From Cruorifilaria tuberocauda (lineage: Eukaryota; Nematoda; Chromadorea; Rhabditida; Onchocercidae): DNA of 64,000 nt. Under the pieces are notes generated by a model. It saw only the letters and a program-made list of their open reading frames with translations, did not search any database and had not been told where the DNA came from. The translations under genes were made by a program, and so were the position numbers. Below are positions 28,556 to 51,700 of the stretch, piece after piece (the first letter of the stretch is position 1; every line of letters begins with the position of its first letter). The stretch covers positions 186,001 through 250,000 of the forward strand of contig JABVXU010000040.1 of the NCBI GenBank assembly GCA_013365365.1, given 5' to 3'.

Positions 28556-28609
28556 TATAAAATGTTAAAATTTCTGATATCATCTAAGTTTAATAAAAAA
28601 GAAATTGAT

Positions 28610-29602
28610 ATGAAAGCAGAAAGTTTCACTAAAGACCAGGTGATTGAGTTCTATAGAAAAATGCTACTAATACGTAAATTTGAGGAGAAGGCAGGGCAAT
28701 TATATGGGATGGGATTAATAGGCGGGTTTTGTCACTTATCAATAGGGCAAGAAGCAGTTGTGACTGGAACTCATGCTGCATCAAAGCCCGGAGATGCTTT
28801 TATTACAAGTTATAGAGACCACGGCTTAATGCTTGCATGTGGTTCTGATCCGAATATTGTGATGGCAGAACTGACAGGCAAAAAAACAGGATGCTCAAAA
28901 GGCAAGGGTGGGTCAATGCATATATTTGATATTGAAAAAAAATTCTTTGGTGGACATGGAATAGTTGGTGCACAGGTTCCGATTGGTACTGGAATAGCAT
29001 TTGCTAACAAGTATAAGAAAGAAAACAACGTAGTGTTTACGTATTTTGGTGATGGTGCTACAAACCAGGGACAAGTATATGAATCTTTTAATATGGCATC
29101 TTTGTGGCAATTGCCTGTAATTTATATTATAGAAAATAACGGATATGCAATGGGGACCTCTGTGCAGAGATCGACTTTAGTGACTGATCTATATAGAAGA
29201 GGAGAGAGTTTTGGTATTCCTGGAAAGCAAGTTGACGGAATGGATTGCTTTTCTGTTTATGAGGTAACATCTGAAGCAGCTAAGTATGTACGCAGCGGTA
29301 AAGGGCCCATTTTGCTTGAAATGAAGACGTATCGATATCGTGGCCATTCAATGTCAGATCCTGCTACTTACCGCTCGAAAGAAAAAATTGAAAATATAAA
29401 ACAAAATTACGATCCTATAAGCACTTTAAGGAAACATATGATAGATAGTAAGATTGTTTCAGAGGAAGGGTGTAAAGTAATTGATAATGAAATACGTGAT
29501 TTAGTGAAAAAATCTGAAGATTTTGCAAAAAATAGTAAAGAACCAGATATTGATGAATTGTGTATTGACGTTTACAAGTCAAGTAACCACTCACTGTGGT
29601 GA
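28610..29602 (+). CDS. pdhA: Pyruvate dehydrogenase E1 component, alpha subunit
   Basis: 330 residues from the ATG at 28610 (MKAESFTKDQVIEFYRKMLL). The frame runs 50 codons further up, overlapping hemJ, but those residues are unrelated. The thiamine-diphosphate motif GDGATNQG ... ENNGYAMGT is intact, as is the regulatory-loop region YRYRGHSMSDPATYRS. With the beta subunit (encoded elsewhere) it decarboxylates pyruvate, which fits the view that Wolbachia runs on pyruvate and amino acids. Confidence 0.96.
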   Translation: MKAESFTKDQVIEFYRKMLLIRKFEEKAGQLYGMGLIGGFCHLSIGQEAVVTGTHAASKPGDAFITSYRDHGLMLACGSDPNIVMAELTGKKTGCSKGKGGSMHIFDIEKKFFGGHGIVGAQVPIGTGIAFANKYKKENNVVFTYFGDGATNQGQVYESFNMASLWQLPVIYIIENNGYAMGTSVQRSTLVTDLYRRGESFGIPGKQVDGMDCFSVYEVTSEAAKYVRSGKGPILLEMKTYRYRGHSMSDPATYRSKEKIENIKQNYDPISTLRKHMIDSKIVSEEGCKVIDNEIRDLVKKSEDFAKNSKEPDIDELCIDVYKSSNHSLW

Positions 29603-29715
29603 GTTAATGATGTTTTATAACGGGACGGGATTCATTTCCTCCCTATGCTTGATTTGTGTTATATTCATTATATATTTCTATGTTCTGCTTTTACACTATC
29701 TAGATAAATGTTTTT

Positions 29716-30648
29716 TCATCCTTCAAAAGGATGATGTAATGCTCTGATAGACTTTTCAAAGTGTTCAGGGCAAAGGGCAGTAATGGTGATTTTTTTATTA
29801 CTTGGCAGTTTTAAGGACAAAGAATATGAATGTAGGTGAATTTTATTGACTGCTCCATCAACAAAAGCTCTTTTACCACCGTATTTACCATCACCAAGAA
29901 TAGGACAATTTATATGAGCTAGATGTGCTCTTAATTGATGAGTCCTACCAGTAATTGGTTGTAATTTTACATAAGCAACATTCCTTCCTAGTCTTGCTAT
30001 AATTGAAAAGTGTGTAACAGCATTCTGTGGTGAATTTTTGTCGACAACCATTTTTTCTTGGCCTGAAATATACTTTTTTACCAATGGAAGATCTATTGTC
30101 CCTTTATCCATACTAGGCATACCAGAAGTTAGTGCTAAATAAATCTTTTTTATTCTTCGTCCTTTAAATTCTTCCATAAGAAACCTTGCAACATTAGTAT
30201 TACGCGCAAATATCATTACTCCACTTGTATCTTTATCTAACCTATGTACAATTTTTAATGTTTCTCCTTCTCTGATTTGATCAAGTAAATCACTAATACT
30301 AATTTTTGTCTTTACACTACCCTGAATAATTACTCCCACAGGTTTGTTTATAGCCAGTATATATTCATCTTCATATAATATGTTGTCTTTCAGTATATTT
30401 ACTAACTCTTGGTTATGTTTAGTATTGAAATTAGTCCTTTTTATATAATTAAAGTACTTTATTGTTATGACCTGCCCAGAGTATACTCTATCACTTGACT
30501 TTGCTTTATAATTGTCAACCTTGATCAGTCTTCTCCTTAAAGATTTTTCAATCATAGACTGCTTTAGGTCTGGGAAAATTCTTCTTATGTACTTATCTAG
30601 CCTAACGTTATCATCTTCTATCGGTATAGTTTTAGTACTTCGAGACAT
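29716..30648 (-). CDS. RluC/RluD-family 23S rRNA pseudouridine synthase
   Basis: 310 residues. An N-terminal S4 RNA-binding domain (about 10-75, DNVRLDKYIRRIFPDLKQSM) precedes the catalytic domain with HRLDKDTSGVMIFA, whose Asp is the nucleophile. Later motifs are LQPITGRTHQLRAHLAHI and PILGDGKYG. Whether it modifies the RluC or RluD sites cannot be read from the sequence. Confidence 0.9.
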   Translation of the reverse strand: MSRSTKTIPIEDDNVRLDKYIRRIFPDLKQSMIEKSLRRRLIKVDNYKAKSSDRVYSGQVITIKYFNYIKRTNFNTKHNQELVNILKDNILYEDEYILAINKPVGVIIQGSVKTKISISDLLDQIREGETLKIVHRLDKDTSGVMIFARNTNVARFLMEEFKGRRIKKIYLALTSGMPSMDKGTIDLPLVKKYISGQEKMVVDKNSPQNAVTHFSIIARLGRNVAYVKLQPITGRTHQLRAHLAHINCPILGDGKYGGKRAFVDGAVNKIHLHSYSLSLKLPSNKKITITALCPEHFEKSIRALHHPFEG

Positions 30649-31043
30649 TTTGTTATTTATAAAAACTTCTAGTAGAACATCAATTATCGATATTGACCCA
30701 ATATCAACTGCATGATACTACATAGGTAGCGGACATTAAAATTAAGATTTTATAAAATCTTGTTAAATTTAACATAAATAAGCTGCTTCTCATCTCAATG
30801 AATTAGCTCATTTACTCGCAAAAAGCTTTTTTGATCTCATATTCTTCTACTTAATGAAGTAAAGATTTGCATTCAAGCATGACGCTGGAAGATTCTATTG
30901 TCAATAGAATGTTCTGTATTATTAGTTAAATATATTAAGCATGAAGCTTAAAACTTTACTATCAACTCTCTACAGATCTGGTAAAACCAGACTTGCTTAA
31001 AATTATTTAATTAGTTATAGTTCGAACTTTCAATTGTAATAAA
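30649..31043. other. Spacer between divergent rluC-type and nhaC-type genes, no gene seen
   Basis: 395 bp with no coding frame. It should contain promoters for both flanking genes; I could not assign -35/-10 boxes with confidence. Confidence 0.45.
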
Positions 31044-32336
31044 ATGATTGCTTTTATTCCTTTACTTATTTTTTTAGTCTTACATCTTGGAAGCGGAACC
31101 TACTTCTTCTTCACTGGAACTGATAATCCACTTCATCAGATTTCTCCCGTAGTTTGCTTATTGCCAGCACTATTTTTTGCCATCTCATGCAGACCAGGTA
31201 AAATTCAACATAACATTGACACTGTCATTGAAGGTATGGGTGATAAAAATACCCTTACTATGTGTTTGATTTTCCTATTTTCTGGAGCGTTCTCTTCTGT
31301 TAGCCAATCAATTGGTAGTGCAGATACTGTTGCTAATTTGATTCTCAATTTTCTTCCAGCAAAGTTATTGTTGCCTGGAGTATTTTTGACCTCTGCTTTT
31401 ATTTCAACTGCAATCGGAACATCCATGGGAGTTGTTGCGCTAATGGTACCAATCGCAGTTAATTTAGCAAAAAGTGGAGCTTTTGATCTTGAGATAGGAG
31501 CTGCAACTGTAGTTGGTGGTGCAGTATTTGGTGACAACTTATCAATGATATCTGATACCACTATTGCATCTGTTTCATCACAGGATGCTACAATAAAGGA
31601 TAAACTTCAAATAAACTATAAAGTAGCATTTATTGCTAGCATTATAACACTAGCCTATCTGGTAGTAACTTCAGATAATACAAAGATTGTTACTATATCA
31701 AGCTTAGATTGTTTTTCAATAATAAAAGTTATTCCTTACATTTCTTTAATAGTCATGGTACTATTTGAAGTTACTACACTAGTAGTAATAACTGTAAACA
31801 TAGTTATTGCTGGTGTACTAGGAGTAACTTTTTTTGACTATTCAATCATTCAATTTTCTCACGACATATATAAGGGATTCAGGAAGGTGAATGAGATAGT
31901 ACTGTTTGCACTATTTATTAGTGGGTTAAGTAATATAATGTATAAACAAGGTCAAAAAGCATTGTATAAACTTATCGATGAAAGTAGAATCACAAAAACT
32001 AAAGCTGAATTTGCGATAGCAGGAATAGCATCCATATTTACTGTTTTGGTTGCTAATAATACTATTGCTATTCTACTAAGTGGTAGTATTGTAAAAAGGC
32101 TTGCAAAAAAACATGATATTGCGCCATACCGTAGTGCGTACTTACTAGACGTTTTCGCTTGTGCTACAAAAGGTATTTTGCCTTATGGTTCTCAATTATT
32201 GCTAGCAGGTAGCATAGCTACTGTATCGCCTATTTCTTTGTCAAAGCAAGTACATTACTGTTTTATCTTAGTAGTAGTTACAGTAGGAGAAATAATTGTT
32301 AACAGTAAGAAAGAAAAGGGCTCTATGATACTGTAA
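31044..32336 (+). CDS. Na+/H+ antiporter, NhaC-like family
   Basis: 430 residues with ten to twelve hydrophobic segments. Family-like blocks are STAIGTSMGVVALMVPIAV and GGAVFGDNLSMISDTTIAS, the latter a characteristic ion-binding loop with GD-N and SDTT. The C-terminal half repeats a similar theme (ACATKGILPYGSQLLLAG). It probably exchanges sodium for protons across the inner membrane. Exact ion specificity is inference. Confidence 0.85.
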   Translation: MIAFIPLLIFLVLHLGSGTYFFFTGTDNPLHQISPVVCLLPALFFAISCRPGKIQHNIDTVIEGMGDKNTLTMCLIFLFSGAFSSVSQSIGSADTVANLILNFLPAKLLLPGVFLTSAFISTAIGTSMGVVALMVPIAVNLAKSGAFDLEIGAATVVGGAVFGDNLSMISDTTIASVSSQDATIKDKLQINYKVAFIASIITLAYLVVTSDNTKIVTISSLDCFSIIKVIPYISLIVMVLFEVTTLVVITVNIVIAGVLGVTFFDYSIIQFSHDIYKGFRKVNEIVLFALFISGLSNIMYKQGQKALYKLIDESRITKTKAEFAIAGIASIFTVLVANNTIAILLSGSIVKRLAKKHDIAPYRSAYLLDVFACATKGILPYGSQLLLAGSIATVSPISLSKQVHYCFILVVVTVGEIIVNSKKEKGSMIL

Positions 32337-32371
32337 TTTAATTACGGATAGACTTATAAAATTTCTTTAGT

Positions 32372-34078
32372 TTATTTCATCTCTTTCAGAGGCTCTATAT
32401 TAAAAATAGAAAATCCGGAAGCAATGATGTGTGCTAAAGCTTGAACAAGGAATATTCTTGCAGCAGTCAGATCTAAATCATCTTTCAGTATAAATCGCAT
32501 ATTCGAATCGTTTTTCCCATATCCCCATAAAGCATGGAATGCTTCTGCAACTTCAAGTAAATAAAAAGTAATTCTATGTGGCTCATAAAGCTTTGCTGAT
32601 ACTTCTACTATACTTGGCCATTTTGCCAAGATTTTTATAAGTGATAGCTCTCCATCATTTTTCAAAAGTGAGGGATTTGCGTTTGGAAGTTCTTTTGGAG
32701 CATTGCGCATTAATGAGTGAGCACGAGCGTATGCATATTGCACGTAAAAAATAGGATTGTTTTTTGATTGCTCCTTTACTTTTGCAAAATCAAAATCAAG
32801 AACCATGTCGTTTTTTTGCGTTAGCATTGTAAAACGGGTAATATCCCTGCCAACTTTCTTAACTACATCCCTTGCTGTCAGAAAATTTCCTGATCTTTTG
32901 GACATTTTAACAGGTTTTCCATTTTCTAAGAAATTTACAATATTATGTAGCTTTACCTCTATCTTTGCCTTGTTGCCACTTAACGCGGATACAACTGCTT
33001 TGAGCCTTTTGATATAGCCACCATGATCACTGCCAAGCTCTACTACCATATTGTTAAAACCGCGTGATATCTTATCAAAATGATAGGCAATATCTGATGC
33101 AAAATAAGTCCAGCTTCCATCTTCTTTTTTTAACGCACGATCAACATCATCACCAAACTTTGTGGAGCAAAACAACATCTCTTTTCTAGAAGCCCAATTT
33201 TTTTTTTCCTTACCTTTTGGTTTTTCTAGATATCCCTCATATACTAAACCCTTATTAGATAATATCTTTATGCTCTCTTCAATTTTACCACTTTTTTGTA
33301 ACTCATATTCTGAAGTAAAGACATCATGACTTACTCCAAGTAAGCGCATATCTTCTTTTATGAGTCTTAAAATAGAATTTAAGGTATAATTTCTAATTAC
33401 TTGATAATCTTGCTTTTCTAAGAGACCTTTGCCATATTTTTTGCTTAATCCTTCTCCTATTGCTTTTAAATATTCACCTGGATATAAACCTTTTTCAATA
33501 CTAATCTTCTCTCCTAGGGCTTCTCTATATCGTAGATATACTGATCGGATTAAATTATCTATCTGTGCTCCAGCATCATTAATGTAATACTCCTTAGTGA
33601 TTTTATATCCGACTTTTTCTAGCAAATTTGCTAAGACGTCACCAAATACTGCTCCTCTTGCATGACCAATATGCAGTGGACCAGTTGGATTTGCAGATAC
33701 AAATTCAAGATTAATGGCTTGGTTATTTCCAACGTTTAGAGTACCAAACTCTGTTTTCTGCTCATTTATTTGTTTAACAATCCCGTGCCATACTTCTATT
33801 TTTAAGTACATATTGATAAAACCAGGGTGAGCTATCTCTACTTTCTTAACTTCATTAAAGAGTTTAAATTCTTTTGCTAGTACTTCTGCAATCTCAATAG
33901 GGTTTTTCCTTTCATATCTTGCAATCACAATAGCAACGTTTGTATAAATATCTCCACGCGCTCTATTACTTGGTGGCTCTAAGATAAAATTCTCTACCTC
34001 CATATTTATAATACCACTTTGCTTTAACTCATCTAGTTTTCTAGAGATTAGCGAGGAAATTCGTTTAAAAATGTTCAT
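32372..34078 (-). CDS. argS: Arginyl-tRNA synthetase
   Basis: 568 residues, full length. The N-terminal additional domain is followed by the class I HIGH motif in GPLHIGHARGAVFGDVLAN and the VKMSKRSGNFLTARDV segment (KMSK-type). The C-terminal helical anticodon-binding domain ends FSIFNIEPLKEMK. It charges tRNA-Arg, including the ICG species produced by TadA. All signature motifs are intact. Confidence 0.97.
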   Translation of the reverse strand: MNIFKRISSLISRKLDELKQSGIINMEVENFILEPPSNRARGDIYTNVAIVIARYERKNPIEIAEVLAKEFKLFNEVKKVEIAHPGFINMYLKIEVWHGIVKQINEQKTEFGTLNVGNNQAINLEFVSANPTGPLHIGHARGAVFGDVLANLLEKVGYKITKEYYINDAGAQIDNLIRSVYLRYREALGEKISIEKGLYPGEYLKAIGEGLSKKYGKGLLEKQDYQVIRNYTLNSILRLIKEDMRLLGVSHDVFTSEYELQKSGKIEESIKILSNKGLVYEGYLEKPKGKEKKNWASRKEMLFCSTKFGDDVDRALKKEDGSWTYFASDIAYHFDKISRGFNNMVVELGSDHGGYIKRLKAVVSALSGNKAKIEVKLHNIVNFLENGKPVKMSKRSGNFLTARDVVKKVGRDITRFTMLTQKNDMVLDFDFAKVKEQSKNNPIFYVQYAYARAHSLMRNAPKELPNANPSLLKNDGELSLIKILAKWPSIVEVSAKLYEPHRITFYLLEVAEAFHALWGYGKNDSNMRFILKDDLDLTAARIFLVQALAHIIASGFSIFNIEPLKEMK

Positions 34079-35187
34079 TAATCAAAAAGCTAAAATCATG
34101 TACAGTATAGTAAATAAGTGGCATGAGTTGAAAGCTTCTCATAATGTATCTCGTGAGCATAAAGAGAAATTGCAAGAAATAAATATTCCTTTTCTTTCCA
34201 TAATTAATAACAGTCAGAAACTTCATAACCTAAGCATATATTGATTCACTCTTACTGAATAGACTGCTGATAGCAAATGAATATGTAAAAACATATAATC
34301 TACATTTTCTTTTTCATCTTTTACTCTACTTAAAGTATTAAGTAAATATTGGTTATTGTCTTAGCATGGTACTATTCATTTTTGATTCCTCTACATGTTT
34401 CCTTACTTTCATCATCTTTGATTTCTGTATTGCTAGAGTCATAAATGTGGCACATTATACATTACTATATCATACTGAACTGCTCTAGGAGAGGTTACAG
34501 CAGTGCTCGATATATCAGTTAAAATCTCTCTAAGATGGAGAATAATACCTAACTTAAAAGATGTGCAATTAAGAACATAGTAATCGAACCGCACGTGTGT
34601 AGAAAAACTTTTGTATTCTTGAGGAAATGTTTTTATATATTCTGTTACCAAACTTATCATGTGGTATCATGCTTTACATCTGATAATAAAGTTTATCCAT
34701 GTTATGTTATGGAACAGACATCCTATATATGGCTATAAAATTAGATAGCAAGTCACAAGATCATTTTAAGACACCTATTTTAAATTATCACAGGCAAAAT
34801 GATTGCAATTTTGTAGCATAGGAGCCAAGTTTGGTGTGTTTAAGTCATCCTTACAAGCTGGTAGATTTATTTATATCTTATATTCTTATATAGATAAACT
34901 CAAGTAGTGTTCACATACTTCAAATGTAAGGAGATAAAGCATATTATACTAAAGCAACACTTATATATGTATAAATTTTTAAAATGACTTTTTAGTGAAT
35001 AGAATCAGTGCACTACGATGATTGTGGTGTATATCATGATAACTCTAACATAGATAAAAACTATGGGCTAAAACTAATAGCATGAGTACATATCTATGAG
35101 CTAAATATCTAGAAATATAAATGATTTTACTCTGAGTTTTAGGATATTAACTTTAATTTAAGCCTCATTCTATCAAAACTATATTTG
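34079..35187. other. 1.1 kb spacer between argS and the ABC exporter, no gene seen
   Basis: AT-rich with short frames only; a 73-codon minus frame at 34439-34660 has no recognisable features. It probably is a decayed gene region. Confidence 0.5.
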
Positions 35188-36894
35188 CTATATTTTCGCC
35201 AATTTTGCATATAGTCCCTTTTTACGCATCAGGGAGTCATGAGTTCCTACTTCTTCTATTTTCCCCTGATTAACTACTACTATCTTATCTGTTTTTAGTG
35301 TGGACGATAGCCTATGCGTAACCATTATCGTCGTTCTGTTTTGCATTAATTTGTTTAGTGCCTTCTGCACGAGGTCCTCACTTTTGTAATCTAAGGCAGA
35401 AGTTGCCTCATCTAACATTAGAATCTGAGGATTTTTGAGCATGGCTCTCGCTATTACAATACGTTGTTTTTGTCCTTCAGAAAGCTTTAGTCCTCTTTTC
35501 CCTACAAATGTATCAAATTTATTAGGTAGCTTATCAATAAATTCCATTGCATAAGCACTAATGGCTGCTTGTTTTACTTCTTCATACTTAGCACCCGGTT
35601 TACCGTATAGTATATTTTCCATTATTGAGCAAGAAAACATCATGTGATCTTGCGGCACTAAACCAAATAACAATCTGAGGTTACTTAGTGCAATTGACTT
35701 AATGTTGTACCCATCAATAGTAATGCTACCTTTACTTGGATCATGAAAGCGAAGCAAAAGTTTTAAAATAGTGCTTTTACCACTACCAGAGGGTCCTATG
35801 ATTGAAATAGACTGACCTACCTTTATGGAAAAGGATACATTGCTTAATACTGGTTTATCAAGGTGAGATTCATAGAAAAATGTTACATTGTTAAATGCAA
35901 TTTCTTTCTGAACATTAGAAATTTTTATAGGATTGCTAGTGTCCACTATAGAGCTTTTTATACCTTTGAATTCAAATAAATGCTCCACTACCCCAAGGCC
36001 TCGTTGTAAATCACTAACATTATCACTTAAATTATTTATAGCTCCTGCTGCAAGCGCTGAGTAGAACACAAATGAAGATAGCTCTCCAATAGTCATATTA
36101 CTGTTTAAGACTTCTTTGATACCAAAAAAGAGCAAAATAACTAATGAACCTATTACACATAAAATAATCAAAGTTACCAAAATAGCACGTAAAAGAACCA
36201 ATCTTATGTATGATTCAGATACTGAGTTCAAGTGTTTCTTAAAACGTATTTTCTCATTTTCTTCTAGTACAAATGATTTAATAGTTACTATAGACCTGAA
36301 ATTTTCTTCACTAAATGATGCTAATTCGCTTAACTTACTCTGGGCAAGGCGTGCATAACCTCGTACCTTTTTCCCAAGTGATGTCATAATGATCAATAAT
36401 ACTGGCACTATTGTAGCTGCATATGTAGTTAAGTATAGATTTGTACATAACAACATAACAACACTGCCAGTTAGTAATACAAAATTTCGTAATATAGTAA
36501 GTAAGCTACTATTTATTATTGATTGAAGCACAGAAGTATCAGTGATTAATGCCGAAATTATATCTTGCACACCTGTGTTTTCAAAAAAACTTGGTTGTAA
36601 ATCAGTAATGTTACTATATAAGTCATACCTGATCCTCGCAATAACTTTTTCACTACCAATTCCAATGAAATACAACCTAATAAATGCAGTAAGAGAAATG
36701 GACAGAATTATAAACATAGTCATTGCTAATTTGGTGATAAAATTATTCTCTGCGCTAGAGTCTATTATGCTGCTTAGCCCTCTACCAAAAAGGAGAATCA
36801 TTAGAGCAGAAAATAAAACTGAAATAAAAGCTATAATGAAATAATGTAGATTAGGTTTTATATAGTAAAGTAACTGCCTGATTTCAGATCGCAT
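35188..36894 (-). CDS. ABC exporter half-transporter (MsbA/lipid-A-exporter-like)
   Basis: 568 residues: a six-helix transmembrane domain (about 1-310) fused to an ATPase. Walker A is GPSGSGKSTILKLLLRF, the signature is LSEGQKQRIVIARAML (Glu replaces the usual Gly of LSGGQ), Walker B is ILMLDEATSALD and the switch His lies in MVTHRLSS. Such homodimers flip lipids or export drugs and peptides. Wolbachia lacks lipid A, so lipid A export is unlikely and the substrate is open. Confidence 0.88.
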   Translation of the reverse strand: MRSEIRQLLYYIKPNLHYFIIAFISVLFSALMILLFGRGLSSIIDSSAENNFITKLAMTMFIILSISLTAFIRLYFIGIGSEKVIARIRYDLYSNITDLQPSFFENTGVQDIISALITDTSVLQSIINSSLLTILRNFVLLTGSVVMLLCTNLYLTTYAATIVPVLLIIMTSLGKKVRGYARLAQSKLSELASFSEENFRSIVTIKSFVLEENEKIRFKKHLNSVSESYIRLVLLRAILVTLIILCVIGSLVILLFFGIKEVLNSNMTIGELSSFVFYSALAAGAINNLSDNVSDLQRGLGVVEHLFEFKGIKSSIVDTSNPIKISNVQKEIAFNNVTFFYESHLDKPVLSNVSFSIKVGQSISIIGPSGSGKSTILKLLLRFHDPSKGSITIDGYNIKSIALSNLRLLFGLVPQDHMMFSCSIMENILYGKPGAKYEEVKQAAISAYAMEFIDKLPNKFDTFVGKRGLKLSEGQKQRIVIARAMLKNPQILMLDEATSALDYKSEDLVQKALNKLMQNRTTIMVTHRLSSTLKTDKIVVVNQGKIEEVGTHDSLMRKKGLYAKLAKI

Positions 36895-37629
36895 TTCATT
36901 TTAAAGTTTCAAGAATTAAGTATATGGATTTCAGTTTTAGGGGAAAGGAGAAAGATATAATTTACTAGCTGAAAGCAAGCTTATTTATCTAATAAGAGTT
37001 AATTTGTAGATTTATCAGATAGATCAAACATAGGTTTACATAAGAATAAGTAATATTTTAGATATTACTACAAAAGTTAAGTAGGAATTGGTGATATATA
37101 CTTTAGGTACTGGCCTTCTAAATAGCTCTTGAAAACAATGCCACTTTGGCTACCTGCACATGTGTGCAGGAAGGAAAGTTGGGACAATATTATTGTAAAA
37201 ATGTAAATTGCCTTTTGCTAAATGGTTTAAGGAGAATGTTCAGTACTATGCTGCTAAGGTATATTTAAGGTAGGCTGATAAATTAGTATTATAACCTGAA
37301 AGCTATCTCCATAGTTAGAGCTGGTTTATGCTATTTCCTAGTAAATCTTCTTGGTGTGAATCAGAGCTTACTATTTGAGTTAATAGCATTAATCAATTTA
37401 TGTCTTTAATTAGTATTACCTAGTATTACTGAGTAAAACCCATAATGGGATTGCTAAACGAGAGGTTAAGTATGGTTTAGTAGTATATTACTATGATGTA
37501 TGCAAAATATATTGTCTAAAATGAAGAATATGCAAGTGTATCTTTACTAAATTAAGAGTAAATCTTATGAGACCAAAAAGGGTACTAAATCTAAGTTAAT
37601 ACCATATGTTCTATATCACATTCTGATGA
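36895..37629. other. 0.7 kb spacer between ubiE and the ABC exporter, no gene seen
   Basis: No frame of coding quality. A short perfect inverted motif CTGCACA...TGTGCAG near 37155-37171 could form a small stem, but nothing shows function. Confidence 0.4.
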
Positions 37630-38328
37630 TTATTTTACTCCAATATATAATGCCACTATTCCGCAGCTCATGTTATGAAACTCAACGTTATGAAACCCTA
37701 CTTCTATAATTTCCATTTGGAACTCAGCTTGAGTTGGAAACTTTCTGATACTTCTCACTAAGTATTCATAAGGATTTTTGTCTTTAGCAACTAAGCCGCC
37801 GATTTTTGGGATTACTTTAAATGAATATAAGTCATAAAATTTATTAAACATCTTATTTTCATAGTTCGTAGGAGCAAATTCTAAGCAAATGAATTTCCCG
37901 CTTAGTTTCAGTACTCTATATGCTTCACTTAAAGCTTTTTTACGATCAGAAACATTTCGAATACCAAAAGCTATTGTACAGTAATCAAATGTTGAGTCTT
38001 CAAATGGTAAATTTTCTGCATTTGCGCATACCCAATTAAAATTAAGCTGGTTTGAATTTATAGCTTTATCAATTCCTCTGTTTAGCATATTTTGATTTAT
38101 ATCGCATACTGTTATTTGAGCACTTGGTTCTTTTCTTGCGATTCTTATTGCTATATCTCCTGTCCCTCCGGCAATATCTAAAACCTTTGAGTCTTTTATA
38201 AAATACGTGCTACTAACCATCTTATCCTTCCATATCCTGTGCATACCAAAGCTCATCATGTCATTCATAATATCATAGTAGTCTGCTACAGTATCAAATA
38301 CCTTCTTGACTAGTTGTGACTTACCCAT
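37630..38328 (-). CDS. ubiE: Demethylmenaquinone/ubiquinone C-methyltransferase
   Basis: 232 residues. The SAM-binding motif is [17 protein letters not shown], with the UbiE/COQ5 blocks [20 protein letters not shown] at the start and [17 protein letters not shown] in the middle, and [14 protein letters not shown] near the end. It methylates the quinone ring in ubiquinone synthesis, feeding the respiratory chain with CtaE. This is the last complete bacterial gene before the junction. Confidence 0.95.
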
Positions 38329-38547
38329 TTTCTCTTTTTTTGTAAAAGCTAATTCAATCTAAATATATTTGAAATTTTTATTGAAATTGCGAAAATCCCT
38401 TCTATCATTAGAACTCATAACTATTTATGACTATTTTAAGAAGGTAAATAAATGTTGTATATAGATAATAAACCATAAGTACAACCTTTACAGATCTAGG
38501 AGTTAGTATAAGTACATGGTGAGAGAATTTCAAGATTCCTTATTGAA

Positions 38548-38886
38548 TTATCTGGCTTTACCGATATAGAGCATACTCGAAAACAAGAAACAAACTACTG
38601 AAAAAGCAATTAGACTGGAATATGGGCTCTTAATATCTAGGAGATAATTTTTTATGCTTAACACTGCAAAATTTTCCGTTATGTAGCACATTTTTCTCTG
38701 AAATTTATCATCGAAATGAAGTGAGCACTCATCAAGCAATGGTAAGATGATATTGTTGTGAACTAAAGAATGAAGAACTCGTCTAATTTTTGCTATGTCG
38801 TAATTAATCCAAAATTTTTGAAATTTGTAGGTACAAATATATATTATATGTATATATATATATGTGCTTTTTTTATCAGCTAGAAA
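38548..38886 (-). pseudogene. C-terminal fragment of a bacterial-type protein, cut at the junction
   Basis: On the minus strand a frame is open from about 38886 to a stop at 38548-38550. Its last 63 codons follow an internal ATG at 38739. The body reads like a Wolbachia protein (IAKIRRVLHSLVHNNIILP, LLDECSLHFDDKFQRKMC) and ends in one hydrophobic helix (SLIAFSVVCFLFSSMLYIG) before GKAR. Upstream of about 38830 the codons fall in a (TA)n tract and no start codon is present. The simplest reading is the 3' end of an unrecognised Wolbachia gene cut off by the join to animal DNA. Confidence 0.5.
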
Positions 38887-39025
38887 TAATTAAAAAGATT
38901 TATTGATGCGTAAGAGTTCATCCTATCTATCCTTATATCTCACTTGCTGTAGCACACGAATTTATGGGTCCTGTCGATGTTTTACTAATAATGAAATGCA
39001 ATTAGTATCAGTTGTTTATTTTCAG
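38740..39025. other. Bacterial-to-animal DNA junction zone
   Basis: Left of this interval everything reads as intron-free bacterial genes. Right of it the coding signal occurs only as short exons bounded by GT...AG introns. The (TA)6 tract at 38851-38862, within a longer AT run (38837-38866), is the most likely breakpoint neighbourhood because the truncated bacterial frame loses coding character there. Base composition does not change visibly, so the exact base cannot be fixed by eye. Confidence 0.7.
38851..38862. repeat. (TA)6 microsatellite at the junction
   Basis: Twelve bases of pure TA within an AT-only run flanked by ATATTATATG and TGTGC. It coincides with the end of the bacterial coding signal. 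Confidence 0.8.
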
Positions 39026-40460
39026 TGATTGCAATGCCATCACGTTCAGGTTGTGCAGTAGCGCAGCAAATGCCACGACAAGTCAAAAAAGTTTGTTTTC
39101 GAAAACTTTCTGATACCCTTAGATATGCTGATGAACCTGATATCTTGATATCCTGACTAATTTAAAGTTATAATCTTATAAGATAGAAATTTTATGTATG
39201 GTAGTATGCTATCTGCCAGTAATTCATTTTTGTCGAAATTTATTTGGTTGTGAGATCCTACATACTTGCACGTATTTACAAGTCGGATATTGTCTGTCAT
39301 AGATTGCTTTAGGTCTCAGTGCCTACAATACCAGATATTAGTACTCAGAAATACGGAACATATCAAGCGAATGTTATTGAAACAGTGGTGACAGGGAATC
39401 CTTACAAGTTTAAACACTCTGCTATATTGCAGCAAAAGAATCACTTATCGGAAAGTGGAAAATTTAATAAAAGTAAGCTTGTTAGTTTTCTTCGGATATA
39501 AGAAATCTACCTGAGTGGGCAGCCTTAGATTTCCCAATTGTCTCAGTGATCGTTATTTGCCGAAAGATCCACTAGTTAGCTTAGTGAATTATCACTCATC
39601 AATGTTTCAATGTGAAATTCAATTTATGGTTTTGGAAAATGATTTACTTTTATTTCATTCACATTATAGTGATCGATCACTCTTCCTTCATGCAGGAATT
39701 TAAACGAAAATACAGCCGTTGAAAAATTTTCATTGTTTAATAGTTGTTACAGTCTGCAGTAGCTTGAATTATCTTCTTCTCATTTGTTGATTTGGAGCAA
39801 GAGGATGGGAAAGAACAATAAGCAGTTCAAACTATATTTTATTCTTTGTTAGCTTCAAATATTCCAAATCGATGAATATTTTTTAGGTCTTCTCATCAGC
39901 ATTCCAGTAGTAAAGATCGTATTATTTATAACTGCTTTCATCTAAGACCTAATTATTTAGCTTTAAGAAAATGGGTCAAGGCATCTTTGCTTATAAATAT
40001 TAAATTGGATGGATAAGCAGTGAGATTGGATCAGGTTTTAGTGTAAATAATAGCTATCTAACTTCTTACATGCTTACTTGATATCAACTCCTGTACATTG
40101 GATTATAATTTTTTTCTACTATAGATTTCATTTTTTAATATAATTTCAGAACTTTAACTGGTATTATAGCTTTATTGTTGTGTTTTCTTAAAACTGTGAT
40201 GCTTGTGTAAATTTTTGAAATAAATTTTTTCTTTGCTCTCATCGAAGATTAAGGAATGGGAGAATTTAAATAGGGAAGTCCATTTTTTTTTGGAAGCTTA
40301 CTGATTTTTTGCATAAATGAAGCAGTCTTTGTAAATACAAAATCGCTGTCAAATGTGACACATATGCCATCCAGCAGCATGACAGCACTGATGGTACCTT
40401 CAAGTTTACATCTCAGCGACGATTCATATTCTGCTCATACGTTGTTCAACAGGAGAAGAG
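39026..40460 (+). CDS. Candidate upstream exons of the Caskin-type gene
   Basis: Three possible exons that link by phase to the secure ones. The first is 39026-39049 (after TTTTCAG, donor CAG|GTTGTG). The second is 39320-39472 (after GGTCTCAG, donor AAAA|GTAAGC), encoding PTIPDISTQKYGTYQANVIE and onwards. The third is 40326-40460 (after AAGCAG, donor AGAG|GTTTGT), encoding a Ser-rich stretch with SNVTHMPSSSMTALMVPSSL. Each starts and ends in phase 1, so they splice without a frame break to the exon at 44497. No domain is recognised; they would fall in the low-complexity linker between SH3 and SAM in Caskin. The first is weakest. Confidence 0.45.
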
Positions 40461-43400
40461 GTTTGTGCTGCTTATTTTCTTCATTTATTGTTTCCTACAA
40501 ATTGTCTGACATGGTAATTAAGGTCAACAGATAAGACGATAGAACGACTGAAGAAAAAAAATATATATATATACGCAAAATATAAGCGGAAGATTTCTGC
40601 TTATCTTTTTTCTCCTTTCTCCTTCATTTCATAAAAAGAAGTTTGCATTTTTCTCTCCATTTGTTGAGGATTACTTTTGCTAGTATTCATCTGTTTCTAT
40701 TAGTAATGAGAACATGTCGGAGTTTTGAAATGAGTTTAAATTTAGCTTTGATCAAGTGTAGTTACAAGTATGTGATATTTATCAAAAGCCATCTGATGTC
40801 ATTGAGCTGTGGAAAATTGAGCATGCTTGTTGACCTATGTTTTCCGTAATTTTGCTTTGACCACTATATGTATTTATTTGGGTACAGACGGAAGACGTAT
40901 GTCCTTTTTTTCTCTATTAGTTCTTATGATTTCCATCTTCTCACCTTGTCATTTTTTCATCTGCAAACCTTTAACAATAATTGTTGAGAAAAATTTTGTT
41001 TTTCTAAATGCTTTTTTGATTGATGCTAGTTTTCCTTCTTGATAATATAGTGAGACTCCGGGCAGGTCACAGTATTAATGTGTCTGAGTGAGCGGAAGAA
41101 GGATGCTATTCTTTAGCGCTAATGTCTACTAAAATGACAATTGTTATCTCTTTACGCTTATTCAGTGCCGCGGTTGAAAAATCTCTTGACTTGAATTGTA
41201 TACATGTACGTAAATAATTAAGGTTGATGACGAATGAATGGCTGAAGTTAGTTGATAGCATTTAATGAAAGCAGACTACCGGATCTAATGAGTGGTCCAT
41301 CTCTTCCGATTTGAGCATTCCAATTTCCCTTATTTGTCAGTTTCTTCTACGTCAATTTCATAATTATTTCTAAAAGTTCCTATTATTTACTGTTTCCTTT
41401 CTACTGCTTTTTCATCTATCTGTTCATTCGAATTTTAGCATTGTGCATCCGGTAGGTGCTTGTCCGTCATTCTATCTATCTATTTACCGGTGTCATAGGA
41501 ACGAGCTGCACATGTACATAAGATTAGAAAAGCATGGGAAATAAAATCAACAACAAGCTGCAATGGTTTAGAATTCGACAGTTCCTCAATATTGTCGCAT
41601 TTTTTTGTGATAAGTGTGATGAATTGATGTTGTAATTGAATTTCATTTTAATATTAAGTAATGTTGAATCAAAGGATGCCATTTCTATTTTATTTAGAGT
41701 TTTTTCTGCAAACCACATTGTTCTTTAGTCTTCTTCATTATGTAGTAATGATAGATGATTCGATGGCACCTTTTCTTCATCAGACATGAGCAGCATAATG
41801 ATTCAGCAATAGAAATCTTCATTAGTTATATGATTTTTTTCTTCGAATATTTCAGGCGAAATATACTGATACTCATTTTTCTTCATACATATAAGGTTGC
41901 AAAGTGTGACGTAAGCATGAATACTAGATTTTATTATAATTTCGTTGTATTTGAAAATATCTCTTACTTCTCCATACATTATATAGCTCCAATGAGAGCA
42001 TAAAATCGATATAATGTATGGAGAAGTAAGAGATTTTTGATTGAATGAAGTGTGCAATCAGTTGAAAATTGATATAAATGGGGGTAAGATCACCCTTAAT
42101 AAACATTTTCAGTATACTTGGTCGTGATGGATTAAATTTTTGAAGAGATTTTTATGATTGCGGGAATGTATCTGTACGAATTTTTTTGCTGGCATCAACT
42201 GGAGATTCTTCGAACTGATTTTCTCTGGTGTTCAACCCACTAGATGTTGGTATTAAGTCCAATTGCTTGACGTAATATTATTCTGACTTTTACGACTTTC
42301 ATTTGTTGTTATTACTGATACTCTTTTGAATTTTACTCTATCGCTATTATAAAAAATTGTCTGGCATATTCAAACATAAATCTTAAAATAGTAGCGTTGA
42401 TCCATTAGTCCGAATCTGAATCTTTACTGAATCTTTTTGCTTTTTGAAAAATTTTTTTCCTGATTTTATAACAAATGCAACTCTATATTCTATGAGCTCC
42501 AGCATGTATAAAAAAAAAGATTAGTGAATAGTAAGTCTAACTTCGACTATTAAAGACACGAGACTGTTTTCATTTCGAAGTGAGACTAGCTTACAAATGT
42601 AATGTAATTACATCACAGAATTGTTATTTCAAATGACTGTTAGCTGCTCATTCTTACGCATCACATTTATTATCACATGCATCTTTCTCATTTTAAAATG
42701 TTTTCATTTAAAAATTTAAAGAGACAAATTGTTTATACCTTTATGTATCATTCGGTAAAACGTTAGAGTGTATTGTATTTGAGACAAAAAGAGTTTTGCA
42801 TTGCAAATATTTCTTCCCTGCTGAACTATATAGGATTCTAGGGAAAGGTTAAACACTGATGTGACGTTTTGATTTTTGTGAATTTCTCTTGTTTGTCAAA
42901 AGTTAAGCTGAAGTGTTGGTGTCTGTTACTGCCGTCTGTGGATTCACTTTTGAAAGGAAAAATACAGTAGTAGTGTTTGGTTCCAAATCTGATTTATCTG
43001 TTCTATTTTTTTTTTAATTCTATTTCTGTTTTCAATACAATCAATTTTGGATGATCTCACAGACGAGAACGCATCATTTTTTTCGGTCTTGTCATATTTT
43101 GCCTTCACATTCTCCTCATTTCTGTTCTTTTCATTTTGTGGAAATTATTGACTCTATGGCTGTTCCATTTTCGGTCCTTTTTTCGACCATTTTACTTGTG
43201 GACTAAATGTTAATAAATGTTTCTAAAATTGTCCATGATGTTACACCTGCATGTTTAACTGGACAAAATTTTTTCGAAAATTTTCCAAAGGCAGAAGTGT
43301 TTAATTTTTTCAGCTTCTCTACGCTGATCAAACCACGGGATTTAGATTTATCGTTGTTAATAGATAATGTTGAAGTGGAAAGAGTGACAAATAAAATCCA

Positions 43401-44496
43401 ATAAAATACCATTGTTATAGTTGCTGTCATAGTGATTCTTGTGCATTATTAAACTGGCGGTGATTAATGTTTGATACTTCTATTAAAAAGAATGTAGTAT
43501 GATTGTATATAAAGGAGGTATTACTGATATTTTCCTTTCATTTTCCGCTTTTCATTTCAGTCTATTGTCGGAAGACAAATATGTGATTTTGTAGTGAAGT
43601 AAAATATAAAATATAACTGATTTGATGGGATAGGGCAGAAACTTTGAAACGAATTTTTTTCGAAAAATTAAATTTACAGAAGACTACAAAAATTTTTTTC
43701 TGTAAAATACTATTATTATGTATGTTTGATGAAATAACGACATATTAAAAAGACATAATCTCTCGAGAAAATCATTTATATAATAGTATTTAATATTAAT
43801 ACGGACAAGATTGCTTGTTTGGGTTAGAATGCAGCTTTTACTTTATACACAGGGGGAGAATTGCTCTTAAGTAAAGAACTCAACAAATCAACAAAACACT
43901 TTTTACCTGTTACACTTTCACGAAAAGGTGTTTATTCTATAAATAAGTAACTATATTTCGTTTGTATGCATTTGGATTTTAGTGTATTAAAGACTAATGG
44001 TGTATTACAAACTTCTAATGCATTGAAAATTTTTCGTCAACTTCAGCTTCATCATTCCTCTTCTGAAGCAGTAGTAATATTTATAGTTCAGGTTAATTAT
44101 TTTCTGATACTTCAGAAAAATCCGCATATTTGTTAATTTAATAGTTGATAAAATTTTTGGAGCTTTTTGTTACTATTTACTGCTTTGAATCTCATCTTCA
44201 TACGTTGCCTTTGTTATTGATTGATTTCTCTATGATCTAATGCTGAGGAATTATAGTGTTTTTCCGTGGAGATAAATTTGAAAATTTTTAACTAAAGATG
44301 TAAGAATTTTTCCATTCTCACATCAGTAATGAAAACATATCTTTTTACTAATCGTGCTGACAAGATTTTCTGCAATCGTTGAAGTGTCATTTAGATCACT
44401 TTCATTAGCATTTCTAACAGTGCTTTCTAGCCAGTTTATTCTTGATGTGATATGGAGTTATTAGTTAAAGAAAAAAATTAATGAAAAAACTTTCAG
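40461..44496. other. Long intronic stretch of the Caskin-type gene
   Basis: About 4 kb with no exon I can support. It is T-rich on the plus strand and contains a (TA)n run near 40560-40573 and the inverted repeat at 41959-42034. Confidence 0.4.
41959..42034. repeat. Perfect 26-bp inverted repeat with 24-bp spacer
   Basis: The left arm (41959-41984, beginning ATCTCTTACTTCTCC) is the exact reverse complement of the right arm (42009-42034, ending GGAGAAGTAAGAGAT). The 24-base loop has no symmetry. It could be a small foldback element or a hairpin in the intron RNA. No target-site duplication is evident. Confidence 0.9.
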
Positions 44497-47400
44497 ATTG
44501 CTACATGAACTTGGAAAAAAGGGATTTAATTATAACATCACCATCTTCATCGGTTCCTTTGAAACAACGATTCTTTTATATTGATGGACAAAATTTTGAT
44601 AATGGATATGATCGAAATTCTGCCGGTCCTAGCTCAAGTTATGACAGTTCTTCTAGTTTCGAAAGTATGAAGGTATTAAAATTTTTCCATTTACTATGGT
44701 TTTCTCAACGTGCAATTAATCATAACAATTTTCTCATCGTAGCTTTTTAGAAACATAACTTTTGTCTCTTACCTTTAAATTTCAAGACTTCATTACTCAT
44801 TTTCTCAGTATAAAGAGTTAACGTCCGTAAGATATTTTTCAAACTGACGAAGAAAAGGTTGGAAGTAAGAATGGAATTAACAAAATTAAGTGGTCCGAAG
44901 ACGATTTGTGTTATCACAACTTTATATAATCTGTTAGATGTTTTCTGTTAAAGTTTCGCCACTGAATGTACATGTAAATTATAATTTTATAAGCGAAAGT
45001 TATAAACTTCTGTAGTGTTGCTTCCAAATTAAGGAGAAAATTTCGAATAGTTTGCTATTTATTTGTTTAAATCAGAAACTTGGCGATATTGCAAAGATGG
45101 AATAGTAGAATTAGAGTAATAACATTCATCTTGTTTATGTCGATTAGAGCAATGTAAAATTAAAATCTTGATTGCTTGAGTATTTAGTGTATTTCAGAGT
45201 GGTTCCTCGCACGTTTGTTCAACAGTTGATACCCAAACCGCCATTGACAGTAATTAATTTTTAAAGACTTATCTCTGGCGTATTCGTTATATTGATTTTG
45301 TTATCTTTAATGATTTTGAGTGGTTTTCAGTTATAAATTTTTTGCTGACCTATAACATATTATTTCCACAGTCACAAAATCTACTTACCTGTTATATTGA
45401 TATTCATAAGCTCCTATTTTTATTACAGTATGTGGATCATCATCGGATCTCTTGCTGAACAGTTCCCAATCACGTCTTTCAATGCAAAGCAGTAATAGTG
45501 GTGACGCTTCTTTCATTATAAATATGGCGAACGTGTTTGATGATTCAGGAGCTAAGCACATCGACGGAGATAACCTAGAGGATGTTTCTAGATTATCTTT
45601 TTCTGATATGATACTCAAAGGAATGCCGGTATGCCACATACACCTATATATAAAGAAATCTATATAATGGCAAAAGTTTTTGGTGACGTAAATGTAACGG
45701 AAGTAAAGTTAAATTTATATTGAAGTTAATTAATAAAAGCAATGTTATTTATTTTGATGAATTTACTGAAAAAATATAAGTTATTTGTTTGATCTATTTT
45801 TTTCTCAACATTTATCCTCTGTTTTGATGATTTTGGAGTAGCCTTATTACTTATTTATTAAGTGAAATCAATATCAAAAATATTTTTTTCGTTTCAATTC
45901 GAGCTGTAACGAGACTAATGCTGTTCGTTCAGTCAATTTATCTAGTATGTTATAGGAAACAGAAATTTTGGCAACATGGTTAGGTAATTTGGGTTATTCG
46001 GAATATTTAACAGCCTTCGTGACTCAAGGTTATGATCTTTCGACAATCGCTCGGATAACACCCGAAGATTTGACAGCATTAGGAATAACCCATCCAGTTC
46101 ATCGAAAATTTCTCATTTCTGAAATTCATAGGTGGCGTATAAGAGATAGTTGGCCAATAATGGTACCATCAGGAGAATTAAGGTTATTTTTGTTGTTAAC
46201 AATTTTCAAATTTATTGACTCTTGAATTATTTTGTTTCGTTTTGTTTTTCGAATAAAAGTAATATATTTAATGATACGTTGAATAAATATTTTAGAGATT
46301 GGCTCCCATTAATTGGCCTTTCTGAATATATTAGTTTGTTCGAGGATCAGGGATATTGCAGAATTGGTGAAATTCAAAATTTTATGTGGGAAGACTTCGA
46401 AGATATCGGCATTGAGAAGTTGGGACATTTGAAACGTCTTGGCCTTGCTATCAAAAAAATGAAGGTTGCCTATTATTGTCATATTGGCTTAAATTTACAT
46501 TGTATATATACTTAGATATGGCGATTGTTTTTGAATGAGATTTCGGCTCTATCAGTAGTGCTATTTTCGCGCTTTTATCAGGTCTTGAAGAAGTAACTTG
46601 TCCAGCATTGCTTGGAAATGGTAATTACCAGATTCTCTTCTAGGTTGAGGAGATATATAATTGGGAGTTTTGTACAAGCCGAAATAGTTGTGTCGAGTAG
46701 TTAAAATATAGATATGGTATAAATTAGATGGAATGGACAACGAATTCTCATAGTTACAGTTATTACTTTTGTTCTGCATTAGTGCTATTAATACTTGATG
46801 TGTTGCATTGAACGACAAACGGTTTCACTTATGGAAATTACTTGTGGGAATTATCTTTTTATAAAACAAATTATGTATGGTGAATCTGGCGTGGAGTACT
46901 GACAAAGTTTTCACTGACCTGAATATCCTCATCTTTTATTCGTACAACTAAGTTTAATGAGAAATGGATTTCCCGAACTTATTTTCTTAAGAAAATTATA
47001 TTTCTCAGATTATAGAAGATGTCTATTTACCTAACTGTTTTCAGGACTATGAATTCGGTCGAATTCAGTCGAATGGTTTGCAGCAACTCGTGAGTGTTGC
47101 AGTACATCATAAAAAAATAGACGCTCAGGTAAGTTCCCTATTAAGAGGATCTAGTTCATTTAAGTAATGCTTTTCTCTGTCTTTTCAGGTCAATCTTTGT
47201 CCATTTCTTCTCCGAAATACGCTTCACAAATATTTAAAGGAATTCACATCATTATCATTTTCAAAAAAAGGACCTTTTTAGACAACTTGCGATGGTTTAT
47301 GTTTACACCTGACACCACAACCTCTTGCTGCAATATCCACGTTTCACCCAAGAAGTTTGAGCGCATCGTACGATAAATGTTGTATTACCGAAAAGCAACG

Positions 47401-48794
47401 TCCACGCAGTCGTGAGATCATTCCTACTGAGACACATGTACAAAAACAGGTAGTTCAGAGATAATTACTGAGACACATGTACAAGAACAGGTAGTTCAGA
47501 GATAATTTATTGTGGGTAAAAATTGGAAATGCGGAAAATATTTGTCAGCTTGAATATTATTCTGTTCAGGTATATCCATACTATAACTCAAATCTATTGA
47601 ACGAGACGATTCCCTACCATTTGGAAAGATGTGATGAACAGTCGCTGGAATCGAACTTAAATAAGCGAAAAAAAAGTTCACTTCAGATAAATCCGTGTTC
47701 TCTTTTTCGAATCCCTTCAGAAAGTCGCCAGAAACATTTCATTGTCCGACAACAACTATCCATACTCCCCGCTAGGATTTTAAGTACGGCTGACAATTCC
47801 ATCATTTCTGATTCAGAAGACTATCCACCTCCTCCGGGTTATTATTTCAATTTCTTATCTTGACATTATTTGTAAAAACTAGTAGATTCTCTCTGTATCT
47901 GAAATGTTTAGACATTATTTATCAGTTTTCGTTGGTGACATTGCTCTGAAAAAAGCACGTAAGTAGTACATTGCACAACAGATGGAATAAAAAATAGAAC
48001 AAAATATGTTGTAGTTGATACCGTACTAATTGTTGGATGACTAATTGTTTCCTAATAATAAATTTTTTACTTTTGGGTAGAATTATAGTGAATTTTGTTA
48101 TAGTCATTTTTAAGGTGTTCATTTCAGCACCCTTAGCATGTGAAGGATCCGTTCAGGTTTTGAGATCAGCATTTAATGAATCCGCAATGGCAGCAATAGC
48201 TAAATCAACAAACGGTAGTAATTTTGAACTGCTTGAGATTAATTCCTTCTCATTAAACAGTCAACTTTCATTTGCAAATGATAACTGTGGTACAATAAAA
48301 AGTCGTGACAACTTATTACGGCACAGATGTAACGAAGAAGCGACAAGTACAACTTCTACACAGTCTAACACGTCACATCGCAGGTAAACATATAACATGC
48401 AGATTTTCATCAAAAGTTCAGTCTGACCAATCTAAAATGCAAATGAACTTTTTAAAATTTTCAGATATTACAGCAACGCTCCTTTTTGATGTTTTTGATA
48501 GAATTTTGAACAAAATTTGCATTTACTGAGAATTTGAAGAAAAGAACAAGTGATTTATCGTAATAAATTTTTGTTGAGTTTTCTAGTTAAACATTAATTG
48601 TAAAACTATTAATTATTAGTTGTAATACTTGTGTACTTTATTTGCACCGTTGAAGTTACTCAGCATCAGCGAATAATGGCGATGTATTGAACGATATTGG
48701 TAGTATGCTGCAGAATTTAACGGATGAGTTGGATGCGATGTTATTACCTTCGCAGACCATCGGATATCCTCGCTATAAACAAATCCCATTCTAA
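44497..48794 (+). CDS. Caskin-type scaffold protein, C-terminal part (ten joined exons)
   Basis: Ten exons join without breaking the frame: 44497-44672, 45372-45390, 45429-45628, 45956-46182, 46296-46464, 47045-47128, 47282-47449, 47570-47837, 48128-48383 and 48656-48794 (TAA at 48792). All are flanked by AG and GT. Exons four and five encode two SAM domains with the Caskin pairing: GYDLSTIARITPEDLTALGI in the first, and WEDFEDIGIEKLGHLKRLGL in the second. The last exon encodes DVLNDIGSMLQNLTDELDAM, the conserved Caskin C-terminal helix. Caskins are neuronal scaffolds that bind CASK or Lar-type phosphatases. The N-terminal ankyrin repeats and SH3 domain of the family are not in the window; they should lie beyond the junction. 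The last acceptor (TTGAAG) is weak but is the one that keeps frame. Confidence 0.85.
45956..46464 (+). other. Tandem SAM domains of the Caskin-type gene
   Basis: Two exons, each carrying one sterile-alpha-motif domain. The first has WLGNLGYSEYLTAF and the second DWLPLIGLSEYISLFEDQGY. The intron between them (46183-46295) splits an Arg codon. Tandem SAMs in Caskin polymerise into fibres in the known family members. Confidence 0.9.
47425..47506 (+). repeat. 41-bp tandem duplication spanning a splice donor
   Basis: Unit 1 is 47425-47465 and unit 2 is 47466-47506. They differ at one base (CAAAAAC versus CAAGAAC). Each copy contains the CAG|GTAGTT donor of the exon at 47282-47449. Using the first donor keeps the frame; using the second reads GTA GTT CAG AGA TAA and stops. 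Confidence 0.95.
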
Positions 48795-51700
48795 CAGCAG
48801 ATACAAACTTAGGGTTCTCTTTGTTTTTCTAATTATGATATTAATATTGTGAACTCGGGACCGATCTGAGAATAAAGGCTTGAGAAATATCCACTCCTTA
48901 TTATCTATTGTCTGACAATGTATTTATGCTCAAACTTACCGAACATTATTGATACCCATTATTTTAACGGGTAAGTTATCCCACTGCACATGAAACAGTA
49001 AATTCTATAAATTACAACTTGAAGTAATTTGAAATATTAAACTAGTTTCAGCATAAAGCATTTCCTAATAGTTTGCAGAAAAGTTGCATAATTAAAAAAT
49101 AAAGGAATGCAAGTTGGATTTTGATAACATCATAAACACAGGGATTATGGAACTTATTTTCATTGTTCGTTTTATAGGTGAATTTTCTACAGCTTACTCA
49201 ATCAACGTAAATATGTGGTAGTGAAGTAGAGTTAGAATAATTCGTTGTTTCTACATATATAATCTGACATAAAAATAGCACACTACCATTATGCAAACAA
49301 TCGTTCATTTGTTGCGAATACTATTAAACAATGCATTTTAAATGAAACATAACAATGAAAACCAATATTGACTGGTCTTTGTTATGCTTTGTTTGTTTCT
49401 TTGCAGATAGTAATGCAAACTTTATAGACCATATCTCATCTCATTGTTTTACGTTATAAGTGATTATTAATCTATCCTCATGTTTTTTAACGGGAAGATG
49501 TTTTGATAAAATTTGATAACAATGTCGCCGCCGGTCGTGTTTCAACAACCTCAACTATTATTTACGAGGAATCCAGTGTTTTTTTCTCGGCCTATTTTGT
49601 AGAAGATTGAGAAGAACCAAATATATCTAATGTAGACTCATGATTATCAGTGGCAACATCCATTCTAGGATTTAAGTCACCTTGACACATGGAACAATTT
49701 ATGCCATTGATAACCAGTTAAATTAGACTACTGCATATCAGCGGCCGGACTGATCCTTGGACCACACTGGCATAAATATTCTCTAATGGGAATTATTCGT
49801 GTATATATAATATAGTTATGAGGGAATATCACGGGTAGAACTGCTCGTTTTCTTGTTGATCGTATGAAAGTTTGGTGGTTGATTGTAGGGATTGAATGGG
49901 ATGCAGACGGTGGTAGTATGAGTGAAATTAAGGTGCATTATCTAGAAACAAAGAGAACTAAGTAAACAAATATGTATGACTTTCTGCGATAATTTAATGT
50001 ATAAGATGGAGAGACTTACATATTAATTAGATAATGATTCATTCTTTGGGTATCGAAAACGTTCGTTTAGTATTCAGTACCATTTGCCAAAGAAATATTT
50101 CAAATAAAACAATACAGAAATATGCTTTCCCAACTTGAAATATTTTTCTTCAGCAAAAAATTCATCTTTAGTGTTGCTACTTAGCAAGCAAAAATTGTTC
50201 AGCACTTCCGCAAACACATATTGATTAAATTAACATACCCCTAAAGCAACACGTAACTCGACAATCAACCCATATTAGAAAATAATGCATTAGTCATTTT
50301 CCTAAGCACTGTTTACTTTATTAAAATAATATCATTTGGCTACAGTACTGAAAATAAAGACAAACTATGCTTTCTTAATTATAAAGTAAAAAAATGAAAA
50401 TTGAATGAGCAATAATGTGGTATTGTATGATGATGTGTAAAACGAGGAGATCATAACTCATTATATGAGATCTACTGAAGTAATAACGCAGCAAGAATTG
50501 AAGACAGTTTGGAGCTGCTACATGAATAAAGCAACCGCATCAATCTGTCATCTTAGAGTTCCAATCAAATCTTAAAATTTTGTTGAAGCTTTTTATAAAT
50601 AATTGATCTACAGGCAAGTGAAAACTTCTTCCATCCAAGCCAGCTCTTGAAAACTTTTCAAAATTTCATGCTTCAGAATAAAAAATTCATCGAAAATTTA
50701 ACAAAAAAAAGGCTTTATTCAAGGCAGATACTTCCGCAAGTAGTCCTGAACAGGTCCTCACATCTGTGAACTACCAGCCGTATTAAACATCTCATTACTC
50801 AAATTAAGGATTGAATTTACAGTCTAGATTTCTAAATCCTTTTGCAAAATGGTGCAATTTGTTTCACCTTCGATTCCAAATCAAGATTTGAAAAAGAAAT
50901 TCTCAGCTTGCAATGCATTTTACCGCAATAACAATAAAATAATCAAGTGTAGAAATACTCCCATGACTTCTACATTTTTCAGTTTAGAATCAATTCAGTA
51001 ACAATTTAGAATCTCCGTTTCAGAATCGCATGAACATAATTAATAGTAATATTTTCTTTCTCGTTATTATTTCTGCTTGATCTCGGATTTTAAAAATTAT
51101 GGTAAGAAAACGGAATGCGCGAATGAGTGAAAACAAAAAATATTTATACAACACATAACTGATGTGAGTAGAATGAGAAAAATCAGCTAGCGTCAACATG
51201 CTGATATATGAAACCAATACACGTATTACTACAACTTATACTACGAAGCTAATAAATAAAGCTAACAATTTAGGGAAGAAAAAAATCAAATCAGTACAAC
51301 TCAATCGAAAGAACTGGAAAACATCTACTTTTCATGCTTACAAAAGAATACCACATATAAATGAACTGTATTAAAGAATGCAGTAGTTGGGAGAGAACAG
51401 CGAATAACATACAAAAAAACAACTCGATTAAATAAATAAACTATACGCTGATGATGGTTTGATGTCAGTAGCATTTATTAAAGTTTTTTAGATTTTTTTC
51501 TCTGACAGTCTCTTAAAATATGGCATTGAAACCTCAAGAACGCTTTCTTCATACGAATTTGAAATTTTAGTAGAAATTCCTTTATTTCTATTTCACAAGT
51601 TATAAAACCGTACCATCCGTCATTAGTTTTCTCAACCAGTTGAAGGTTTTATCGTTACGAGACAATGAATAAACTAAATAATCAATGACGCCTTCAAAGA

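Follow-up and report, generated by a model that had tools for sequence, protein, structure and literature searches.

The window analysed here is a 64,000-nucleotide stretch of the Cruorifilaria tuberocauda assembly (contig C444, positions 186001-250000), and it is very probably an assembly chimera of Wolbachia and worm nuclear DNA. A chimera is the most likely explanation, since the Wolbachia sequence that ought to follow is present in this assembly on a different contig, C419. The left 38,642 bases would come from the living Wolbachia chromosome and the remainder from a worm nuclear contig. C444 is 270,477 bp long, and the assembly holds 71.68 Mb in 1108 contigs. The features of the window, in window coordinates, are the following.

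1..38642, no strand assigned: Wolbachia endosymbiont chromosome segment, the closing part of a block of 224.6 kb (C444:1-224,642), assigned by full-length genes and collinearity.
37630..38328, minus strand: ubiE, 232 aa, intact, the last Wolbachia gene before the join (gene call, NCBIfam).
38504..38642, no strand assigned: overlap with the final 139 bp of C419 (53027-53165, minus), 136/139 identical, with mismatches at 38536, 38565 and 38569.
38642/38643: break point, where C444 parts from C419 and the Wolbachia chromosome is left behind.
38643..64000, no strand assigned: eukaryotic (nematode-type) nuclear DNA; frames of 150 aa or longer are absent from the five 5 kb bins past the one with the join.
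45962..46464, plus strand: Caskin gene, two exons with tandem SAM domains (45962-46138 and 46294-46464); best PDB match Caskin-1 (3sei, E 6.9e-19).
58999..59160, minus strand: HMG-box exon (PF00505, E 2.3e-13).

The first-pass annotation of this DNA had described one continuous sequence running from bacterial into animal DNA. This was borne out: C444:1-250,000 is without any N, and a single gap-free sequence crosses from one to the other. The join itself had been placed at 38740-39025, a zone that is already on the eukaryotic side; the break lies about 100 bp further left. Over the first 220 kb of C444, each 5 kb bin is covered to 29 to 100% by stop-to-stop frames of 150 aa or longer; the coverage is 50% in the bin that contains the join and 0% in the next five. 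The sign of a composition model flips near 38.6 kb, where the model is too noisy for placing the break. The worm side of the window and a piece of C887 belonged to the training set of the composition model applied to C419 (see below); the composition results for these two are circular and were not used as evidence.

On the left side of the join, about 28 non-overlapping bacterial genes (counted by eye) and one tRNA-Ile are found, in agreement with the roughly 30 genes and one bacterial tRNA reported earlier. All ten genes tested, including DnaK, GatB, MetK, PyrG, ArgS and UbiE, align with an NCBIfam family along almost their entire length. Sequence decay, a mark of all but very recent nuclear Wolbachia copies (nuwts), was not seen, as the ten tested genes are full length and the fragments elsewhere in the assembly show 69 to 96% identity. 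Window positions 19-39 kb are collinear with wDi 481-462 kb and with wOo 796-774 kb at 80 to 86% identity. The identity of ubiE to 41 Wolbachia genomes is nowhere above 85%. The sequence beyond it (38349-38642) gave one weak match only against the 41 genomes (72% over 85 bp, E 7.5e-4), and this stretch is presumed to be Wolbachia mainly through C419. The order of the window beside ubiE is shared by wDi and wOo. There is a rearrangement in wDcau, where the sequence left of ubiE (window 35176-38331) is some 117 kb off (429.6-431.4 kb vs 548.1 kb).

A search of the assembly with window positions 38500-39300 returned two matches, C444 itself and the end of C419 (C419:53027-53165). From 38643 onwards C444 enters worm DNA; C419 runs on into a palindrome, which begins one base past the break, and then into atpH-atpA. 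The first-pass annotation had named unbroken continuation of the closest reference Wolbachia genome past ubiE, at every copy, as an observation that would speak against the join, and this comparison has now been run: wOo, wDi and wDcau, all three filarial references compared, continue without a break. The atpA-atpH genes neighbour ubiE in all three, and C419 carries both genes next to the overlap. The end of C419 aligns at about 85% with wOo, wDi and wDcau directly beside their ubiE. The wDi piece L024:500-12000 aligns collinearly, first with C419:45293-52379 (+) and next with C444:224344-222764 (-); besides this ordered pair it gave nine short matches elsewhere and one more short match on C419. 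The spacing across C419/C444 is 1,070 bp with wOo anchors (1,084 bp in wOo) and 945 bp with wDi anchors (677 bp in wDi). The ubiE-atp intergenic region is not constant in size. This gene neighbourhood is established for the three filarial references, and the last 5.2 kb of C419 had no match in five other Wolbachia/Mesenet loci (L025, L027-L030) within the stretches compared. In the bacterium, atpH and atpA would lie about 1 kb beyond ubiE, and the assembler would have put both on C419. A chimera should leave the true continuation of each side elsewhere in the assembly; that of the Wolbachia side was found, on C419, whereas searches with window positions 38500-39300, 19001-39000 and 38000-48000 turned up none for the nematode side.

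The first-pass annotation had also called intron-rich metazoan genes on the right, and the Caskin gene and the HMG-box exon listed above agree with that call. At 48663-48743 the tail of Caskin is matched weakly, under the Pfam cut-off. Domains were searched for in the plus frames between 38.7 and 53.7 kb and in the minus frames between 49.0 and 64.0 kb, and the plus frames of 38.6-46.3 kb were repeated. Upstream of the SAM domains, as far as the join, this gave no ankyrin repeats (plus frames, 38.6-46.3 kb). A truncated Caskin was considered as a test of the join and set aside, since the nematode gene may itself have none of these repeats. When window positions 38000-48000 were compared with the assembly, the C419 overlap was the only other match listed.

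The copy number of the Wolbachia block was examined at several places. Window positions 19001-39000 gave, in addition to the C419 overlap, 17 other matches of 60 to 303 bp with 70 to 93% identity (18 of 19 candidates were scored and the self match is absent from the list). C444:1-6000 matched itself and eight stretches of 42 to 231 bp. Each of the three marker pieces located on C444 is present in a single good copy, and one of them also has a 107 bp match at 74%. The other matches to the block in the assembly are fragments (42 to 305 bp, 69 to 96%), not all of which are confirmed as nuclear; some may be paralogues. A separate long copy beside the endosymbiont's own, as expected of a nuwt of this size, was not found at the places tested, where a collapsed identical copy would stay invisible. 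The best secondary match of C444:1-6000 is on C887 (231 bp, 96% identity) and reaches the very start of C444. An rpoC fragment is present at C887:361045-361821 in a 259-codon open frame, with 160 codons matching rpoC, and the 231 bp match lies within it. This fragment is likely a nuwt. C887 is 522 kb in length, and within one 5 kb stretch of it that was read, the only frame above 130 aa is the one with the rpoC fragment.

Ten pieces of wDi were taken as markers of the endosymbiont genome (two were masked, one was unused and seven were combined in one query). All seven were found near full length at 83 to 88% identity, on C355, C145, C177 (two) and C444 (three), and the same query gave three further matches of 107 to 198 bp at 74 to 80%. 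One full-length 16S was found on C177 (5 of 265 candidates scored). In the same search, C932:49362-49537 gave a weak partial match to a bacterial-type SSU rRNA (63 bits; 5 of 265 candidates scored), which is possibly mitochondrial or a nuwt. Because all seven wDi pieces and a full-length 16S are present, the endosymbiont was not filtered from the assembly, and therefore its removal does not explain the single copy of the block. The order of the contigs along wDi is C355, C145, C177, C897, C419 and C444, in which C897 was placed via its valS overlap and its size (19.8 kb vs a wDi gap of 20.7 kb). Provided that C355, C145 and C897, which were only sampled, are wholly bacterial, the Wolbachia parts of the six contigs total about 845 kb. 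Filarial Wolbachia genomes span 0.86 to 1.05 Mb (PMC8116671).

C444 is one of three mixed contigs, together with C177 and C419, and each of the three departs from the bacterial chromosome at a point of its own. C419 begins with nematode-type DNA, followed by four diverged Wolbachia fragments and then by valS from its middle. Its start is worm-type by a composition model untrained on C419, in which 15/15 held-out Wolbachia pieces scored positive. The four fragments form one feature.

C419:20279-20884: mosaic of four fragments, end to end, from unlinked symbiont places, 87-94% identity.

The fragments match C355:29760-29955 (93%), C355:237602-237713 (93%), C145:68865-68995 (94%) and C444:223034-223203 (87%). 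The mosaic is likely a genuine nuwt cluster at the edge of a misjoined contig. The remainder of valS was predicted from an overlap to be on C897 (19,753 bp) and was then confirmed by the reading frame. The first 107 bp of C897 overlap C419 (105/107) in the same frame; C897:1-1500 (minus) is an open frame corresponding to positions 179-640 of the valine-tRNA ligase model, and the C419 piece corresponds to positions 608-791. On C177 the sampled points are worm-type as far as 273.75 kb, and bacterial DNA starts at about 273.8 kb. Its join is at 273,780-273,820, just upstream of a groES-groEL pair (names by eye), at wDi 405.9 kb. The hairpin beside this join is very strong and terminator-like (0/1500 random and 0/1500 intergenic controls were as strong). 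A reciprocal swap between C177 and C419 at valS is ruled out by the position of the C177 join, which is upstream of groES-groEL and not at valS.

The first-pass annotation had left open whether the join is an insertion or a chimera; the evidence now favors the chimera, and an insertion is unlikely. An insertion would have to be real and very recent, with at least 224 kb of little-diverged Wolbachia DNA in a worm chromosome that the assembler merged with the endosymbiont, and we regard this as highly improbable. The gap-free passage of C444 across the join is in its favor, a collapsed undiverged copy would give the same fork of C444 and C419, and nuwts without polymorphism have been described in Brugia malayi (PMC3849323). 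Against it, the other copies in the assembly are short and diverged and the block is single where tested. Three mixed contigs with three bacterial exit places would need several such insertions, and C419 cuts the essential gene valS, the other part of which is at the end of C897. It is very hard to credit that 224 kb or more of the resident Wolbachia was inserted into the nucleus with almost no divergence and ends 314 bp upstream of ubiE, beside a Caskin gene. If true, it would be, to our knowledge, the largest intact insertion in a nematode that still has its living symbiont.

As to the cause of the chimera, a nuwt bridge is reasonably probable. The assembler may have passed from the endosymbiont into nuclear sequence within a short nuwt of roughly 100 to 140 bp and about 98% identity. 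The joins of C444 and C419 have a common signature: the true bacterial contig ends in an overlap of 107 to 139 bp at 98%. These shared overlaps, the mosaic on C419 and the copy of the C444 left end on C887 together point to a crossing inside short nuclear copies. That the overlaps reach 98% and not 100% could be due to divergence of a nuwt, to errors at the contig ends or to differences between strains. A nuwt bridge also predicts a fourth arm, a nematode contig that ends in the same 139 bp, and none was found in the assembly searches. This result counts in favor of a chimera made without any nuwt, in which two contig ends were fused through a chimeric molecule in the library or through loss of coverage at a hairpin; such a fusion is possible, if rather doubtful. 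The palindrome on C419 one base past the break and the very strong hairpin adjoining the C177 join would suit it. The palindrome beside the C444 break, however, is of ordinary strength (12% of the 1500 random and 8% of the 1500 intergenic control places match it), and hairpins were rejected as a general cause of the joins in spite of the exceptional one at C177. A fusion without a nuwt would also leave unaccounted for the nuwt mosaic right at the C419 join and the left end of C444 in a stretch copied on C887 at 96%. A nuwt bridge would account for both.

The join in the window is poor evidence for a giant gene transfer and most likely an assembly error. Wolbachia DNA flanked by host nuclear DNA, which is expected of a nuwt, is seen at the level of the assembled contig. 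Assemblies of infected worms can fuse hundreds of kb of a living symbiont onto nuclear contigs. Read literally, a contig of this kind would add a giant lateral transfer to the count, or its Wolbachia genes would pass for genes of the worm. With at least three mixed contigs (C177, C419 and C444), the joins need checking, and the contigs probably need splitting there, before transfers are counted or genes annotated.

Three known systems can be compared with this contig. The large Wolbachia insertions of Drosophila ananassae (PMC4299567) resemble it in the long bacterial-host join. Unlike in that system, neither a second long copy nor decay was found in this assembly, and another contig carries the bacterial continuation. 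The nuwts of filarial worms (PMC12693587, PMC3849323) have their counterpart in the short, diverged nuwt-like fragments of this assembly, which at one place form a mosaic. The commonest fragments in B. malayi are 100 to 200 bp (PMC3849323), whereas the block on C444 extends intact over 224.6 kb and, at the places tested, is present once. The comparable misassembly is that of B. malayi and its Wolbachia wBm, in which worm sequence in the Wolbachia assemblies was attributed to nuwts, nuclear copies that match the endosymbiont (PMC10902005). Those assemblies were fragmented (N50 of 7.5 kb for genomic DNA), whereas the mixed contigs found here are 53 to 401 kb in length and belong to a nematode-sized assembly of 71.7 Mb.
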